Shown here: positions 547 through 12,534 of the stretch, piece after piece
Position numbering within the stretch: position 1 is the first letter of the stretch
Layout: the number at the start of each line of letters is the position of its first letter
NCBI GenBank assembly: GCA_027036675.1
Contig: JALWDW010000024.1
Coordinates: 1 to 34,521, forward strand
Direction: 5' to 3'
Length of the DNA: 34,521 bases
Source: Candidatus Dojkabacteria bacterium
GTDB taxonomy: Bacteria; Patescibacteriota; Dojkabacteria; SC72; JAHDCA01
The notes under the pieces: generated by a model
The model's input: the letters and a program-made list of their open reading frames with translations, nothing else
The model's database searches: none
Told to the model about the DNA's origin: nothing
Made by a program: the position numbers and the translations under genes

Positions 547-1644
547 ATGCACGTCATCACACAGCCTACAACACAGCAATTAGATAAGTTTTACACCGCC
601 CAACCCTGGGTGCCGGTCCAACAGACCCCACCCTGGTACAGATTCCAAACAGCTGGCCTAAACAAAGAAGCCTACCAAATCGCAGTCACAGACGCAGACA
701 GGATACTGATCTCCGGGATGTATACAATCGAACATACCCATTTGAACACAAAGTTTGCGTATTTTCCGCGCGGACCGGTCATCGACCACGCATTGTACGA
801 TGCAAGCGCCGAATTGCAGGATGGGTTGAAACTCCTCACGCAACAAGTATTCGCCAATCACTCCGAAATATCATTTATCCGCATAGAGCCAGCATTGCCA
901 AATACAGTGGATAATCAAAACAAACTGCGTGATATCGGATACAAGGCATTGCCAGCCAATATACAGGTGCAAAGATCATGGGTGGTGGGACTTTTTACAG
1001 ACAAAGATATGGGCATGGAAGAAAAACTGGCTTTTATGCGTCAGCATGGTATGAAATCCAATGTCAAGGGCAAAATACGCAAAGCCCATAGATCAGGAGT
1101 ACAGATCGAGGATTATATTGGAGATATTGAGAAAACCAAGGAGTTTTTGGAATTACTGCATAGGACGGCGGCCAGGCAGGAATTTCCTCTATTTCCCGAT
1201 GATTATTATCTGCAACAAGCCAAAATACTAGGTGAAACACAGAATATGAAAATCTATATGGCGTATTACGAAGGTAAACTCATGGCAGGCGCAATGGTCG
1301 CCATCTTCGGCAAGAGGGCATGGTATCTGCATGGCGCATCAAACGCGAGGGAAAGGAAAAACAATATTCAAATTCCTCGTTACCTTCATTGGCGAATAAT
1401 GAATGATATGGTCGGGCTCGGTGTGACTCAATATGACATGTTGGGTGTCAACTCTGAGGAGAAGATGATACCTTCGCACCCAAATTACGGGTTTTCCCAG
1501 TTTAAACGCAGTTTCGGGGGCAGGGAAGAGGTGTATGTATTGCCTCATGATATTGTGCGTGGGGGTGTCCTAAACCGTGTCAAGCACGGGGTTGAGTATT
1601 TGCGGCACTGGATAAGGAAGAAGAAGTACCATTTGGATTATTGA
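547..1644 (+). CDS. FemAB/FemX-like peptidyltransferase (peptidoglycan bridge or lipid II aminoacyltransferase)
   Basis: The 365-residue protein resembles the Fem/MurM family, which uses aminoacyl-tRNA to add amino acids to the lipid II stem peptide at the cytoplasmic face of the membrane. Family-like features are an N-terminal WYRFQTAGLNKEA segment, a central KGKIRKAHRSGV region, and a C-terminal GNAT-like half with AGAMVAIFGKRAWYLHGAS, then YDMLGVN and a terminal GFSQFKRSFGG block. That last block is typical of Fem proteins (a G-x-x-x-F-K-x-x-F-G pattern). Length is normal. The ATG has no Shine-Dalgarno sequence. The stop is TGA, showing that TGA terminates in this genome. It stands alone, with no other cell-wall gene nearby, so the amino acid added cannot be inferred. 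Confidence 0.85.
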   Translation: MHVITQPTTQQLDKFYTAQPWVPVQQTPPWYRFQTAGLNKEAYQIAVTDADRILISGMYTIEHTHLNTKFAYFPRGPVIDHALYDASAELQDGLKLLTQQVFANHSEISFIRIEPALPNTVDNQNKLRDIGYKALPANIQVQRSWVVGLFTDKDMGMEEKLAFMRQHGMKSNVKGKIRKAHRSGVQIEDYIGDIEKTKEFLELLHRTAARQEFPLFPDDYYLQQAKILGETQNMKIYMAYYEGKLMAGAMVAIFGKRAWYLHGASNARERKNNIQIPRYLHWRIMNDMVGLGVTQYDMLGVNSEEKMIPSHPNYGFSQFKRSFGGREEVYVLPHDIVRGGVLNRVKHGVEYLRHWIRKKKYHLDY

Positions 1645-2216: not shown

Positions 2217-3170
2217 CTAGACCGTCGGAGCTTCCGGCTTGGCGGCTGGATTCGCCCGCATGGCATCGTTCACACGATCGGCTGAAATCACAGCATTCCT
2301 TAGCTGGGACGCCAGATCACCAACGGCACCCGGCCCGTGTGGCATCAAGATCACACTTGAATTGCCTTTTTCGCCGATATCCTTCATCGTATCGAAATAC
2401 TGTGTCAAAAGGACCAAATTCATCACATCAGCAGGAGTGGACCCCTCCACGCTACTCTGAAACTCCTCAACCGAAGCGCTCAAACCCTCCACGATAGCCT
2501 TCCTCTGACGCGCGATACCCTCGCCCTGCAAAGCCTTCGCTTCAGCTTCCGCCTCGGCGGCCTTCACCACTAAAATCTTCTCGGCCTCACCGCGCTCGTT
2601 TGCGGCAACACGCATCCTTTGAGCAGCATTGATCTCATTCATCGCTGCCTTGACCTTGGAATCCGGTTCAATATCCGTCACCAATGCGTTGACAATCTCA
2701 AACCCAAATTGATTCATAGTCTCATTCAACTCACTTTTGACCGCCATCGCTATCTCATCCTTCTTTTCAAACAACTCATCGATAGTGATACGAGGTACCC
2801 TGGCACGTACAACATCGAAAACATATGAATTGATCTGAGTATGAGGATCATTGAGCTTATAAAATGCGTTATACACACCGTCGGGCATCACATGATACTG
2901 CACGGAAGTCACGATATGTACGAAAACATTGTCCTTGGTCTTGGTCTCCGCCTTGACATCCAATTGTTGAACTCTAAGCGATACCTTACCGGCGACCCTG
3001 TCTATGAAGGGCATTTTGGTATGCAGTCCGGGACCCGACAGGTACTGATATTTACCAAACCTCTCGACTACCGCTACCACCTGTTGAGGTACCGTGAAAA
3101 AAGAGCCAGTCACCAGCAACAATATGAAAAAGAAAAAACCAAGTATAAGACACAGGAAAAGGTAAACCAT
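2217..3170 (-). CDS. SPFH/band-7 (stomatin-like) membrane protein
   Basis: The 317-residue protein has one N-terminal membrane segment (about residues 3-24). The SPFH domain follows (about 25-200), with VPQQVVAVVERFGKY, GPGLHTKMPFID and the QQLDVKAETKTKDNVFV strand. Next is an Ala/Glu-rich coiled coil (about 185-240, RGEAEKILVVKAAEAEAEAK) and a flexible C-terminus. The layout matches stomatin and plant HIR-type proteins, which oligomerise into membrane microdomain rings and often regulate membrane proteases. It is divergent from the membrane-anchored Clp-like ATPase operon, which suggests a partnership. That link is inference. An extended -10 promoter lies just upstream at 3200-3208. Confidence 0.9.
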   Translation of the reverse strand: MVYLFLCLILGFFFFILLLVTGSFFTVPQQVVAVVERFGKYQYLSGPGLHTKMPFIDRVAGKVSLRVQQLDVKAETKTKDNVFVHIVTSVQYHVMPDGVYNAFYKLNDPHTQINSYVFDVVRARVPRITIDELFEKKDEIAMAVKSELNETMNQFGFEIVNALVTDIEPDSKVKAAMNEINAAQRMRVAANERGEAEKILVVKAAEAEAEAKALQGEGIARQRKAIVEGLSASVEEFQSSVEGSTPADVMNLVLLTQYFDTMKDIGEKGNSSVILMPHGPGAVGDLASQLRNAVISADRVNDAMRANPAAKPEAPTV

Positions 3171-3199
3171 GTTTGAGATATTACTAAACTTAATGTATC

Positions 3200-3208
3200 A
3201 TTATACCA
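3200..3208 (-). promoter_or_regulatory. Extended -10 promoter for the SPFH gene
   Basis: On the minus strand the sequence reads TGGTATAAT, a TGn-extended consensus -10. Initiation would fall near 3193, leaving a leader of about 20 bases before the ATG at 3170. No -35 box is visible, as expected for extended -10 promoters. Confidence 0.5.
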
Positions 3209-3228
3209 TCTTTGATGACAATCTGCCC

Positions 3229-3648
3229 ATGAATACAGCCAAGACAAATTACATCCCCCCGGCCAGAAATACTCATGTATTATTTTTGGAAAACTTCTCC
3301 GGCAAACCAACCTTTGCGAATATTTTGTATTACTTCGCCAAAGAGTTTTTTGTATGGTGGTATGTCATCGCGCCGATCGGGAAAATTCACCGCTTTTCGC
3401 GTATGATGTTGGTCATCGACGACAAACTTTCAATATCACTGCTCGCACGCACGTTCTTCGTACCCTGGCATAGCGACAAAAGTTTCGTCGGGTACCTCGT
3501 CGCATTGATCATACGTATAATTTACCTGCCGATCGCATTATCCGTCTACCTGACAGTGGCAGTCGCATACGTATTGCTTATGATCCTATGGTTTCTCCTG
3601 CCTTTCCTACCGATCACTATGATCATTTTGACTCTTATCGGACGTTGA
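3229..3648 (+). CDS. Small hydrophobic membrane protein upstream of the Clp-like ATPase
   Basis: No family is recognised. From the ATG at 3229 the protein has 139 residues: a polar N-terminus (MNTAKTNYIPPARN), an aromatic stretch (ILYYFAKEFFVWWYVIAP), and a C-terminal ~55 residues that are almost wholly hydrophobic, enough for two or three membrane passes. In-frame ATGs also exist at 3169 and 3193. I prefer 3229 because the 3169 start would overlap the first codon of the divergent SPFH gene and span its promoter, but AAAAGG precedes 3169 and keeps that start possible. It ends 4 bases before the ATPase gene, so they are surely co-transcribed and probably act together at the membrane. Confidence 0.7.
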   Translation: MNTAKTNYIPPARNTHVLFLENFSGKPTFANILYYFAKEFFVWWYVIAPIGKIHRFSRMMLVIDDKLSISLLARTFFVPWHSDKSFVGYLVALIIRIIYLPIALSVYLTVAVAYVLLMILWFLLPFLPITMIILTLIGR

Positions 3649-3652
3649 ACTC

Positions 3653-6364
3653 ATGACAAACTTCACCACACGGCACAAATCGTTGCAAGGATATGTGGAC
3701 GAACAAACAGGCTCCAAAGAAATACCGCCACCAAACCAATTGTACCTGTTTACAAATCCCGTACATCGCCCATTTCTGCTGACAAAGAATATCCTGTTTT
3801 CCACAACATCAACGAAAGTCGCTTCAGCCATACGCAATACCAATAAGCTCAAACGATACAGAGCGATCAAGATATGGATAGCCCAGATCCTTGTGGGGAT
3901 CGGCTTTTTAGCAGCTTTGGTCATCGTATATCTGCATTTGTCTGATACATACCGTCAATTTTTACACCTGACACCGTGGTTCAACACCGTATTTTGGATC
4001 TCATTGATAGGGGCGATGCTTTTATGGCACGAGTATTACGGGAACTCCGGGCAGACGGTGCATCTGCCACATACTTCGGAATTATCCGACTCAGAGATCA
4101 AAGAAATACGCGAGCACGGTCTTGACTACGAAAAGCTGGTCCGTGAAGACATCTTGTCGTACGTGAATCCGGACGTCATGTCAATCATCATCTCCGCGAC
4201 TTCGGGACAAGGGGATGAATCATTGCAAGTATCCTATTACCGGCTGTTGCTATCATTGCTACAACACCGTCATATCCAATTCATCAACAAACACGCAAAC
4301 GACCTTTTCAATACCGAGTCCTTCCGCGAGCACAATGTCAATGACCAGACATTGCCCGCATACCCAGTCGTCACGCTTAGGAGCATATTGACGACTGCCA
4401 TGCAGGAAGCTCTTACAAGCAAAGCCACCGCCATCGGTCCGCAACATGTATTGCTGGCACTGCTTCGCCATTTCCCGATCATGACTGAATATTTGCAGAA
4501 ACGAGGCGCCAAATACGAAATTCTCCAAAAGGGTGTCCAATACTATGATGATCGGCTAAAACGATTAGCGAGGACACATATATTCGATCCATACGTACCA
4601 TATTACCGGACCGGTGGGGTGGGGCGATTTTGGGTGTACGGATACACATTTAAGCTCGATCACTTCAGCGAAGATATGTCGATGAAGGTGGCTTATTCCC
4701 ACGACATTTTCGGTATCGGACACGACAAGGAAATCGAGCAACTGGTATCGATATTGGGACGGCGGGAAAATAAAAATATTCTGCTGATAGGTGAACCGGG
4801 AGTGGGGAAGTCCAGCCTGATCAAGGGCCTAGCGCAGAAGATCAACTGGGGACAGGTACCACCGGTGCTCAAAGACAAACGCATACTGAAACTCGACCTG
4901 AACATGCTTCTGGCGTATTCGTCAGCCAAAGGCAATATAGAAGCGTTGATAGGGGAATCCTTCGAAGAAATGCGTGAATCAGGAAACGCAATTTTATATA
5001 TCGATGAGATACAGACAATATTACCTGCCAAATCAAGTGAAACAGGTCAAAGTGTGGCATCGGTGCTATTGCCTCATATACTGGAAGGTCAAGTTCCCGT
5101 CATAAGTACGATCAACCACGCGGAATACAAAAAGTACTTGGAAGACAACGGTTCTCTGGAAAACGCATTTGAAAAAATAGAGATCGAAGAAGTCAGCCCT
5201 GATGATACATTCACCATACTAGCTTCGCAACTTGATTTTTTGGAAAAAGAATACAATCTGACCATCACATTTTCGGCGCTGACCTCATCAATCCAGCTGT
5301 CCCAACGCTATATCGCCGACCGCAGGTTGCCGGATAGCGCTATGCGCACATTTACCACCACATGTTCGTGGGCACATACGGCTGGAATATCTGTAGTGAC
5401 GGACAAAGAGGTCGCCAATGTCATAGCCAAAGAGACCAAGATACCTTCCGTCTCCACCGACACGGATGACAACAACAATCTGCTGACATTGCAGGGAAGG
5501 ATCATGAAGAAAGTCATAGGGCAACAAGATGCGATAGAGGCCATAGTCAAGGCGTTGAAAAGGGCGGTCACCGATATACGGGCGGAAAACAAACCTATCG
5601 GCGTGTTCCTGTTTCTCGGGCCGACGGGGACAGGTAAAACGCATGTGGCAAAAGTCCTGGGTCAAGAATACTTCCACGGGGAGAAAAATATCATCCGAGT
5701 GGACATGTCCGAGTACCAGGAAGTGACGGATATCGCAAAATTGATCGGCGATCCCGCGCAACCGTCATCCACTGCCACGACACTGACAGAAAGGGTCAAA
5801 AAGCAGCCTTTCAGTGTCGTCCTTTTCGATGAGATAGAAAAAGCCCACCCGCATATACTGGATCTCTTCCTGCAAATATTTGATGACGGCCGACTTACCG
5901 ACGCCAAAGGGGAAACCATATCGTTTAGCAATACCATAATCATCTGCACCAGCAATATAGGCAGCAAAACATTGCTCGAAATACTGCAGGACGGTTCAAA
6001 AACATGGCAGATGGCTCAAGCGGAGGCCATGCGGGATCTGCGAGAGACCATGAGACCGGAATTACTCAACCGCTTTGACCAAATCGTCGTGTTCAGACCG
6101 CACAGTATGGAGAACCTTGCCAGGATAGCGGAACTCCTGCTCCGACAGCTTGCGAAAAAACTCAACGAAAAGAATATCAATCTTTCATGGGAAGAAAGCA
6201 TTCCGACCTTGCTCGCACAAAAAACTTACGATCCGGGCATGGGGGCCCGTCCTTTGCGTCGTTATGTGGAGGACACGATACAGACACGTATTGCGGATGA
6301 GATCCTCGCCAACAGTCTACAGCAAGGCGGTAATGTTATAATCACTTCACAGTGGATCACCTAA
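3653..6364 (+). CDS. Membrane-anchored Clp/Hsp100-type double AAA+ ATPase
   Basis: The 903-residue protein has two predicted membrane helices (about 73-95 and 108-126) and a Clp-N-like helical region (about 165-300, with AIGPQHVLLALL). AAA+ domain D1 has Walker A GEPGVGKS at 380-387 and Walker B AILYIDE ending at 452. D2 has Walker A GPTGTGKT at 656-663, Walker B VVLFDE at about 722-727, the arginine-finger region RPELLNRFD at about 801-809 and sensor-2 GARPLRR at 864-870. Compared with ClpB/ClpC, three elements are missing. The D1 pore tyrosine position holds Ala (near 425) and the D2 GYVG loop is replaced by GDPAQPSSTATT. The D1 arginine pair (ERRF in ClpB) reads ENAF. No ClpP-docking LGF loop or M-domain coiled coil is visible. 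It is probably an ATP-driven membrane remodelling or quality-control machine rather than a ClpP partner; that is inference. Confidence 0.88.
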   Translation: MTNFTTRHKSLQGYVDEQTGSKEIPPPNQLYLFTNPVHRPFLLTKNILFSTTSTKVASAIRNTNKLKRYRAIKIWIAQILVGIGFLAALVIVYLHLSDTYRQFLHLTPWFNTVFWISLIGAMLLWHEYYGNSGQTVHLPHTSELSDSEIKEIREHGLDYEKLVREDILSYVNPDVMSIIISATSGQGDESLQVSYYRLLLSLLQHRHIQFINKHANDLFNTESFREHNVNDQTLPAYPVVTLRSILTTAMQEALTSKATAIGPQHVLLALLRHFPIMTEYLQKRGAKYEILQKGVQYYDDRLKRLARTHIFDPYVPYYRTGGVGRFWVYGYTFKLDHFSEDMSMKVAYSHDIFGIGHDKEIEQLVSILGRRENKNILLIGEPGVGKSSLIKGLAQKINWGQVPPVLKDKRILKLDLNMLLAYSSAKGNIEALIGESFEEMRESGNAILYIDEIQTILPAKSSETGQSVASVLLPHILEGQVPVISTINHAEYKKYLEDNGSLENAFEKIEIEEVSPDDTFTILASQLDFLEKEYNLTITFSALTSSIQLSQRYIADRRLPDSAMRTFTTTCSWAHTAGISVVTDKEVANVIAKETKIPSVSTDTDDNNNLLTLQGRIMKKVIGQQDAIEAIVKALKRAVTDIRAENKPIGVFLFLGPTGTGKTHVAKVLGQEYFHGEKNIIRVDMSEYQEVTDIAKLIGDPAQPSSTATTLTERVKKQPFSVVLFDEIEKAHPHILDLFLQIFDDGRLTDAKGETISFSNTIIICTSNIGSKTLLEILQDGSKTWQMAQAEAMRDLRETMRPELLNRFDQIVVFRPHSMENLARIAELLLRQLAKKLNEKNINLSWEESIPTLLAQKTYDPGMGARPLRRYVEDTIQTRIADEILANSLQQGGNVIITSQWIT

Positions 6365-9778: not shown

Positions 9779-10591
9779 TTACTCATTAAACTTCTGTGCC
9801 TTACTGTATACAAATTGTAAAACACTTTGCATAGTGGTATATGGCACAAATCCCTTTTCAATATCTATTGAACTATCCACTGTAATATTACTGGAATAGT
9901 AACCAGTCACCGTCAATGCAACCTCCCATTCATCGTCATAATTCGATTGACCGACATTTTCCAGACGCACTGAACTTATGACCACTAAATAGGGCGACAA
10001 ATCTTGCACCTCACTCAAAAAGTTTGCAATATCGTTATATTTGCCTTTATATATAAAGGGTCCGGAAACCATATCGTACCCCAATGCGTCACTTTTTCTA
10101 ACCTTTTTGGATAATGATGATTTTCCAGACTCATCCGCTATTAGCTTTTGCACACTCTTCTCCTCTTTTTTTGCAGAATTATCAGACTTTTTCTTGTCAC
10201 TTATCAATACCTCAGAGTTGGCGGAACTAAACCTCTGTAACAGTAAGCTGTTTTTTAACGCAAGTTGATCCACATATCCAGCAAACGATGATACCTCCAT
10301 ATCTTGAGGCATTACCATACTCAAACGTTCTTGATCCAGGTCCATTTGCACCTCATCCAAAGCATTCAAATCGTTTATATACTTCTGAGTTTTTACTATT
10401 TCGTCATCTAGTCTATGGATCTCATATCTGTCTGATTTAACTTTTTGTGTAAACGGTAATAATACGAAGAACAATACCATTATAAACACACTCAATCCTG
10501 TCAGCGCTATAACCCAATCTACGGAACGCATGATACGTTTCATTCTTTGGTGTTTTTCTTTTATCCTTTGTCTTTTTGTCTTATGTGCCAT
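9779..10591 (-). CDS. pilO: PilO-like type IV pilus inner-membrane assembly protein
   Basis: The protein has 270 residues from the ATG at 10591 (a TTG two codons upstream is possible). It has a basic cytoplasmic N-terminus, one membrane helix (about residues 25-47), a coiled coil (RLDDEIVKTQKYINDLNAL) and a C-terminal ferredoxin-like domain (YDMVSGPFIYKGKYNDIANFLS, then SSVRLEN). That is the PilO layout. A Lys/Ser-rich low-complexity linker of about 45 residues splits the periplasm-type part and is unusual. PilO pairs with PilN to align the pilus motor below the envelope. It is the last gene of the pilus locus, 14 bases after the pilN stop. Confidence 0.8.
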   Translation of the reverse strand: MAHKTKRQRIKEKHQRMKRIMRSVDWVIALTGLSVFIMVLFFVLLPFTQKVKSDRYEIHRLDDEIVKTQKYINDLNALDEVQMDLDQERLSMVMPQDMEVSSFAGYVDQLALKNSLLLQRFSSANSEVLISDKKKSDNSAKKEEKSVQKLIADESGKSSLSKKVRKSDALGYDMVSGPFIYKGKYNDIANFLSEVQDLSPYLVVISSVRLENVGQSNYDDEWEVALTVTGYYSSNITVDSSIDIEKGFVPYTTMQSVLQFVYSKAQKFNE

Positions 10592-10605
10592 CTTCAAAAT
10601 ATCCC

Positions 10606-11463
10606 CTAAAGTCGTTTTTTACTGAAAACAGTGGAATTCAATTTGCCGTTGAATATAAATGTAGCCTCATCATCGCCTGCGGTAAATGACGACAATGCTA
10701 CACTATCCACTGCCGGATCGACACTTAACAAATACCATAACTCCGCCAAGGATTCAACAGAATCGCCATTACCCTCTATTGTAAAAGTAAGATCTTGACT
10801 TATGGATATTGAAGATAATGTTCCGTATCCTTCTATCCTCTGTTGCCAATATTCAAGTGTGTGCTTTGGATCATATGTCTTGATCTCCAGTTGATCAACT
10901 ATGGCCAACCTTTTTTTCAATGTTTCATTTTTCTTGTTCTTTAGAGCCTGTCCATTCAATTCACGCTGAATGGAATCCAATCGTCTCTTACGCTCATCCA
11001 ACGATCTGTGCAACAGCAATGTAGCAACAAACATAGTGAACCCAATGAACATGATAATCATCAAGAAGGCCAATATGCCAATACTACTTTTACCCTGCTG
11101 TTGATCCGCCTCAAGTTCCTCCAAGGAAGGTGTCGGAGTAAGATCCAACGTACCATACGTAATGTTATAGATCCGTTTTTTTCTATCCGAGGGTTTACGA
11201 GTGTTATGCGTACGATTGTGTTTTTTATTTCGTTTTGTTTCTGTCTTTTTGCTTTGTCCTCGAGAATCCTTGCCGTCATCATATGTGTCAGATTCATCAT
11301 GATTCTCCAGTTGATCGGTCTGAGTTTTCACCTTGACATCATTGGGCACAACTATATTGTCAACATCTGATGCCACCTCGTCTTTCATAGTCACTTTCAA
11401 ATCTTCAGATTCCTTTGTATCTTGACGACTTTGTTGTGTATCATGTTTATCTTGTTTCATCAT
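10606..11463 (-). CDS. pilN: PilN-like type IV pilus assembly protein with long disordered N-terminus
   Basis: The 285-residue protein has one membrane helix at about 128-151 (GILAFLMIIMFIGFTMFVATLLL), then a coiled coil (RSLDERKRRLDSIQRELNG) and a compact C-terminal domain, as in PilN. Typical PilN is near 180 residues. The extra ~100 residues are an Asp/Lys/Thr-rich disordered head. Residues just before the helix (YNITYGTLDLTPTPSLEELE) resemble the short PilN cytoplasmic motif that docks into PilM. It lies between pilM and pilO, the standard order. Confidence 0.8.
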   Translation of the reverse strand: MMKQDKHDTQQSRQDTKESEDLKVTMKDEVASDVDNIVVPNDVKVKTQTDQLENHDESDTYDDGKDSRGQSKKTETKRNKKHNRTHNTRKPSDRKKRIYNITYGTLDLTPTPSLEELEADQQQGKSSIGILAFLMIIMFIGFTMFVATLLLHRSLDERKRRLDSIQRELNGQALKNKKNETLKKRLAIVDQLEIKTYDPKHTLEYWQQRIEGYGTLSSISISQDLTFTIEGNGDSVESLAELWYLLSVDPAVDSVALSSFTAGDDEATFIFNGKLNSTVFSKKRL

Positions 11464-11499
11464 ATTTGAGTATTTGACAGCCTCCGGAATAAAGGTCTA

Positions 11500-12534
11500 T
11501 CAATTATTTTTTTGTGCTAGTCCGATCGCAACAGCGTAAGAAGGGTGATTTTTGTCAACTAAATTGACATATTTTTCAGGAATCTGTATCCCTTCCCAGG
11601 GATTCGCCACCTCAGACTCTATACCAAGTTCTTGCGTCATGAAATCCGCCAACCCAGGTAATAACGCTCCGTCACCACATAGCTCAGCTTTCGAAGGTAA
11701 TTGCATCAAGTACTTAGTCTTATAAAACTCCAACGCTTTGTTGATCTCTACGATTATACTTTTCAACACAGGCGAAAGAGCAGAGTACACCTTTCCTTCC
11801 AATACGTCAGGCAAGACTCCGTAGTTCCTTTTATACTCTTCGGCTTGATTGTAATCAAAATTGAACTGGTTTATCAACGTTTGAGTCAATACGTCCGAAC
11901 CAATCGGTATACTCTGAGAGAAAACCAAAAAGCCGTTCCTGATAATACTTAGATCTGTGGCGCCGGCACCGAAATCCAGCATCACCATATGTTCATTCTT
12001 TACAGCTCTATACAAAGCTCGACCAACAGCGACCGGCTCTGTCTCCACTGCAATAGGATCAAGCCCGGCTCTATCCACTACATCGAGATATATATTAACA
12101 ACACTTTTTGGCGCCGCGACGAGAAGTACCTGAAAAGCGTTTTGTGTTTCGTTGAATCCAACTTTTACAGCTGACATCTGGACTTTATCAATAGAAATAG
12201 GCAAAAGTTGCTTGGCCTCGTAAAAGATAACACTTGGGATTTCATCTTCTTTGATCCCCGGTAATTCTACAAATCTTGTATATACTGATGATTCAGGCAA
12301 CGCGATGACAACTCTTTTATTTCTAATCCCACTTGAATCGTACAACGCCTTGACTGCGTCAGCCAGCTGTATCTGATGCTTTTCGTCTATGCTTCCAACT
12401 ACGCCATGTGGGGTCGCCTGGCTCCCTACATTTACCAAGGATTGTTTTTCAGTATCAATCCCAGACAGCTCGATTGCTTTAACTGTGTGGGTCCCGAAAT
12501 CCAGGCCTACATGTTGCGGGATTTTCTTTGACAT
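11500..12534 (-). CDS. pilM: PilM, actin-like type IV pilus assembly ATPase
   Basis: The 344-residue FtsA/actin-fold protein has the phosphate-1 motif GLDFGTHTVKAIEL near residue 10 and phosphate-2 MLDFGAGATDLSII. The internal IALPESSVYTRFVELPG and LCGDGALLPGLADFM blocks are typical of PilM. It is cytoplasmic and binds PilN while contacting the motor ring. Length is normal. A gap of 87 bases separates it from the DUF4215 gene; a weak TTGCAA-like -35 is present there, but I cannot assign a firm promoter. Confidence 0.93.
   Translation of the reverse strand: MSKKIPQHVGLDFGTHTVKAIELSGIDTEKQSLVNVGSQATPHGVVGSIDEKHQIQLADAVKALYDSSGIRNKRVVIALPESSVYTRFVELPGIKEDEIPSVIFYEAKQLLPISIDKVQMSAVKVGFNETQNAFQVLLVAAPKSVVNIYLDVVDRAGLDPIAVETEPVAVGRALYRAVKNEHMVMLDFGAGATDLSIIRNGFLVFSQSIPIGSDVLTQTLINQFNFDYNQAEEYKRNYGVLPDVLEGKVYSALSPVLKSIIVEINKALEFYKTKYLMQLPSKAELCGDGALLPGLADFMTQELGIESEVANPWEGIQIPEKYVNLVDKNHPSYAVAIGLAQKNN

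Follow-up and report, generated by a model that had tools for sequence, protein, structure and literature searches.

A conserved pair of a small membrane protein and a two-ring Clp/Hsp100-type ATPase as a candidate non-threading remodeler in Patescibacteria

A small membrane protein and the two-ring AAA+ ATPase encoded directly downstream of it appear, on balance, to constitute one membrane-anchored remodeler of the Clp/Hsp100 type in Patescibacteria, which would work without threading its substrates and without ClpP. Genomes of the CPR are mostly small and rich in genes of no known function, and division of CPR cells is poorly understood. The pair was studied in a window of 34,521 nucleotides, the whole stretch of DNA that was analyzed, for which an initial annotation had proposed that the two proteins assemble with a divergently encoded SPFH protein into a three-protein membrane machine. 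The portion of this proposal that joins the small protein to the ATPase is retained here; the portion concerning the SPFH protein is given up, as an SPFH gene lies beside the pair only in this genome. The literature search, which was confined to open-licence papers, returned no record of a membrane-bound Clp in CPR, and this is therefore weak evidence of novelty.

The locus and its conserved gene pair

All three genes were confirmed at the positions originally assigned to them. The SPFH gene (Band_7 by Pfam, stomatin/QmcA-like, 317 aa; 2217-3170) is on the minus strand, divergent from the other two. On the plus strand, the small gene is followed after 4 bases by the gene for the ATPase, a membrane-anchored two-ring Clp/Hsp100-type AAA+ protein of 903 aa (3653-6364), referred to below as the membrane Clp. 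The small hydrophobic frame was first listed as 3169-3648, but its conserved start is most likely the ATG at 3229 and not at 3169, because homologues mostly start near there and because promoter-like sites occupy 3173-3229. The resulting partner module of 139 aa (3229-3648) is defined by 39 homologues, a structure model and hydropathy. The promoter-like sites, which are the best two consensus matches and matches only, overlap between the divergent starts, with TTGAGA-17-TATCAT on the plus strand and TGGGCA-18-TATAAT, with an extended -10, on the minus strand. The small protein carries a WWY motif, an FFxPWxxD motif and a long hydrophobic C-terminal half, and is modeled as two long helices (pLDDT 88). 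It had no match in Pfam, NCBIfam, PDB sequences or PDB folds, and a known fold was accordingly rejected for it.

Loci of the ATPase relatives were collected together with 7-8 kb of flanking sequence wherever the contigs were long enough. In the window's order and class, comprising Dojkabacteria/WS6 and allied CPR, the small gene is directly 5' of the ATPase gene at 39/39 loci with a readable upstream side, the window included, and the intergenic gap is mostly -11 to +10 nt. Among 40 far Patescibacteria loci, 20 are fused, in 19 the ATPase gene follows the small gene directly (one of these, L136, is the same place as the class locus L069 and so a duplicate), and one has no ATPase alongside. Twenty deliberately weak profile matches added 19 adjacent pairs and one fusion. 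With the duplicate left out, separate genes are adjacent in 37/38 far loci, and the two are fused in 21 loci, the small protein then making up the N-terminal part of the ATPase. Of the 381 sampled Patescibacteria genomes, 190 were matched by a profile built on the small protein (A1) and 227 by a refined version (A4); in many of these the match opens a frame of 800-920 residues, which represents the fused form. The one exception among the far separate-gene loci is L143, in genome G322, in which the small gene has no adjoining ATPase; on another contig of that genome is a membrane-Clp-like match in a 1008-residue frame (G322:C19:3935-5908), apart from the lone small gene. At a further locus (L203 of G053, 2534-5117) the membrane Clp is in two overlapping frames of 618 and 320 aa with the break between the rings, which may represent a frameshift, an assembly error or a true split.

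Chance adjacency of the two genes was excluded by this conservation and by the fusions. The fusions and the conserved coupling also constitute strong evidence, at the level of gene organization, that the small protein and the ATPase act as a physical unit. The small protein had originally been taken for a subunit of the ATPase from its position 4 bases upstream; its adjacency across the phylum and its fusions are the behavior expected of a dedicated subunit.

Two other features of the window were recorded. The approximately 570 bases between a FemAB-like gene and the SPFH gene (1645-2216) are roughly 60% GC as against about 45% around them, and yielded neither a convincing gene nor, even at E<=1, a match in Rfam. 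On the minus strand, a PilO-like gene (9779-10597) and a PilM gene (11500-12534) suggest a type IV pilus cluster (9779-12534).

The SPFH gene as a neighbor

The SPFH product has a Band_7 Pfam match (E=3e-39) located after an N-terminal membrane segment, and its best solved relative is QmcA. The initial annotation envisaged an assembly of three subunits, the small protein among them, in which this SPFH protein cages a Clp motor, by analogy to the cage of the SPFH proteins HflK/HflC around FtsH. Such a cage would fit the divergent orientation of the genes and their overlapping promoter-like sites in this genome, but it is very improbable in light of the comparison across CPR genomes that was originally suggested as a check. 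That comparison bears out the small gene and the ATPase, which are kept together beyond this genome, and fails for the SPFH gene, which is beside the pair at 0/79 other loci searched (best match E=0.86). A Band_7 match is absent altogether from near-complete genomes that bear the pair (G002, 99%; G010 and G014, 98%; also G015 and G016). The closest SPFH homologues, 65-70% identical, are scattered through genomes of the order and class at a distance from the pair; in G017 the SPFH homologue and the ATPase gene are about 143 kb apart on the same contig. The window ATPase and its relatives share only 26-44% identity, and with this disparity the simplest reading is that the SPFH gene spread horizontally. 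Moreover, FtsH is the usual partner of SPFH proteins, and the window's own genome encodes FtsH elsewhere.

From synteny, co-occurrence, the scattered homologues and the separate FtsH, the SPFH protein is no conserved component of the machine; synteny and co-occurrence led us to reject it as a third subunit, and without a conserved SPFH partner the analogy to the HflK/HflC cage falls away. The SPFH gene looks like a chance neighbor in this one genome, and its product would be a later arrival, outside the unit. At most loci of the window's order, the divergent gene encodes a tRNA-dihydrouridine synthase (Pfam Dus, in a representative), and at the remainder it is DHH-type phosphoesterase-like or YbaK-like, as named by eye.

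Architecture and motif losses of the ATPase

The ATPase is a Clp-type AAA+ protein with two AAA+ modules, forming two rings, in which Walker A and B, arginine-finger ([RK]PE-x-NRF[DS]) and sensor-2 motifs and a D2-small domain are present. Its AlphaFold2 model (mean pLDDT 83) matches the folds of ClpC and ClpB. In the model, a small beta domain (residues 11-50) precedes an N-terminal membrane hairpin (residues 53-133; 3809-4051, plus strand), which was assigned from the model and hydropathy. Two N-terminal membrane helices had been described initially; two long helices are indeed predicted, at residues 53-96 and 100-133, but only the former passes a simple hydropathy threshold. The best match of the N-region, in the window ATPase and in one fused member, is to Clp_N and is sub-threshold (about residues 240-310; 4370-4582, plus strand; 8 bits, E=0.021, below the cut-off). 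Alignment with ClpC and ClpB revealed no insert between the ring-1 lid and ring 2 that could be a coiled-coil M-domain. Neither Pfam nor NCBIfam detected a protease domain, M41 included, in keeping with the original description of a membrane-anchored Clp-type motor that lacks one.

The motifs of 77 membrane Clp sequences (40 from the order and class, 20 fused and 17 far separate-gene members) were compared with those of 25 soluble Clp paralogues that also come from Patescibacteria. In a tree of the ATPase core, made by a quick method and with some long branches, the membrane Clps form one group and the 25 soluble paralogues lie across a 100% branch. The window ATPase, on the plus strand, has ring-1 Walker A GEPGVGKS (4790-4813) and ring-2 Walker A GPTGTGKT (5618-5641). 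At its pore-loop positions, AYSSAKGN (4913-4936) replaces K-[YFM]-RG in ring 1, and GDPAQPSSTATT (5747-5782) replaces GSPPGYVGYxEGG in ring 2. The ring-1 pore-loop aromatic is found in 0/77 membrane Clps, whereas all 25 soluble paralogues have Y, F, M, L or V there, and the GY/F-x-G loop of ring 2 occurs in 3/77 as compared to 25/25, these being calls from sequence alignment of unequal-length loops, in which alternative gripping residues can be hidden. The IGF/LGF-type tripeptide of the last ring, which docks ClpP, is present in 15/25 soluble paralogues and in none of the 77 membrane Clps, and partnership with ClpP was rejected on this ground. The window's own genome has separate genes for ClpP, FtsH and a soluble Clp.

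The nucleotide sites are intact in ring 2 and, in the window's order, also in ring 1. Walker A and B of ring 2 are intact in all 77 membrane Clps. Walker A of ring 1 is intact in 39/40 order and class members, 19/20 fused members and 9/17 far separate-gene members, and ring-1 Walker B is DE-type in 36/40 members of the first set and 1/17 of the last. Because ring-1 Walker B is degenerate in the lineages of L144-L154, ring 1 of the membrane Clp is probably inactive there. With the usual pore-loop residues lost from both rings, the unit is unlikely to thread substrates as Clp motors ordinarily do.

Proposed function and known systems

The genes surrounding the pair suggest a target in division or the cell wall. 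At eight far loci (L144-L146, L148, L149 and L152-L154), the pair is among mraZ, rsmH and an FtsL-like gene (Pfam, in representatives), and most of these loci also have a MraY/WecA-type gene. At the fused loci L128, L131 and L135, the unit is upstream of prfB, ftsE, ftsX and an M23/PcsB-like gene; other fused loci have in common prfB and an FtsK-like gene in convergent orientation. A UppP-like gene, named by eye, is two genes upstream at L064 and L065, and several T4SS_pilin-type membrane protein genes are in a row downstream of the membrane Clp at L068 and L069/L136, although these Pfam matches are mostly just below the cut-off. The envelope is a recurrent theme among these genes, but since the neighbors vary by lineage, and those downstream in the window's own order are the housekeeping genes nusB, RNase III and S16, the link to the envelope is suggestive only. 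Other genes were seen near the pair or near SPFH homologues. A FemAB-like (peptidoglycan bridge) gene is close to the small gene and ATPase in the window (547-1644) and in family f5 (L057 and L058, about 1.0-1.1 kb off), and also to the lone small gene of L143. A LemA gene and then a DUF2207 gene come right after the membrane Clp at L064 (11276-13657), and a gene pair beside the SPFH homologue at L073 (1-1366) looks, by eye, like the LemA and DUF2207 families.

We propose that the small protein and the ATPase hairpin would together form a membrane platform, which would hold the ATPase hexamer on the cytoplasmic face. Through ring movements, ATP turnover would remodel or assemble membrane or envelope protein complexes, with no pulling of chains through the pore and no degradation. 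The unit perhaps acts on the cell envelope, where neighboring genes suggest division or cell-wall complexes as its targets. A bolder formulation, which we consider rather unlikely as a whole, is that the pair represents a widespread CPR/Patescibacteria membrane Hsp100 that has given up both threading and proteolysis and serves as a torsin-like remodeler of the divisome or of cell-wall synthesis complexes, its platform being either separate or fused.

The same motifs can be read in other ways. The membrane Clp may still be a threading motor, for which the membrane module would serve as a gate or adaptor while the hexamer extracts or exports proteins by means of non-aromatic pore loops, in the manner of HSP101 in PTEX. 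The two-ring Clp architecture and the intact ring-2 ATPase motifs are consistent with this, as are the 3/77 members that retain the ring-2 GY/F-x-G, the aromatic residues kept in the ring-2 loop of L120 and L150, and the phenylalanine of a shorter ring-2 loop (F-V-GG or F-E-GG) in the L067-L069/L137 group; other residues might also grip a substrate. The loss of the ring-1 loop residue in 77/77 and of the ring-2 GY/F-x-G in 74/77, in a phylum whose soluble paralogues keep the ring-2 loop in 25/25, nevertheless makes a threading motor doubtful. A mainly structural or regulatory ATPase, one that performs little mechanical work and whose binding of ATP acts as the switch of a membrane scaffold, would account for the pore-loop losses and for the degenerate ring-1 Walker B of the far separate-gene lineages. 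We judge it clearly unlikely, given that Walker A and B of ring 2 are intact throughout and that ring-1 Walker B remains of the DE type in most order and class members.

If the pair is the non-threading remodeler favored here, it would provide a bacterial, two-ring addition to the short list of seemingly non-threading Clp-family ATPases, the torsins, and a way to examine what a Clp ring can do without pulling chains through its pore. The machine, its pore loops lost from both rings, occurs in well over half the genomes sampled, and would then also be a candidate envelope factor for CPR cells.

Among known systems, ClpC, ClpA and ClpB share with the membrane Clp the two AAA+ modules, the Walker A/B, arginine-finger and sensor-2 motifs, the D2-small domain and the fold. 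The membrane Clp differs from them in its hairpin and small membrane partner, in lacking the pore-loop aromatics, the ClpP tripeptide and an M-domain, and in having Clp_N as a sub-threshold match only. FtsH with HflK/HflC is likewise a membrane-anchored AAA+ ATPase, and an SPFH gene happens to lie next to the pair here, but the membrane Clp has a two-ring motor of the Clp type, no M41 protease domain and no conserved SPFH partner. HSP101 of the Plasmodium PTEX translocon is a threading Clp/Hsp100 unfoldase recruited to a channel at the membrane, whereas the motor of the membrane Clp is itself anchored in the membrane and lacks the pore-loop aromatics. The torsins offer a precedent: they belong to the Clp family of ATPases, lack aromatic pore loops and operate with membrane cofactors (PMC5425593). 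Torsins with LAP1/LULL1 and the membrane Clp are alike in being Clp-related, in lacking aromatic pore loops and in having a membrane cofactor or partner. In contrast, torsins have one AAA+ ring, reside in the ER lumen and receive their arginine finger from the cofactor, while the membrane Clp is bacterial and has two rings and an arginine-finger motif of its own. Because of these differences in ring number, location and the source of the arginine finger, the likeness to torsins is one of a way of working and not of membership.
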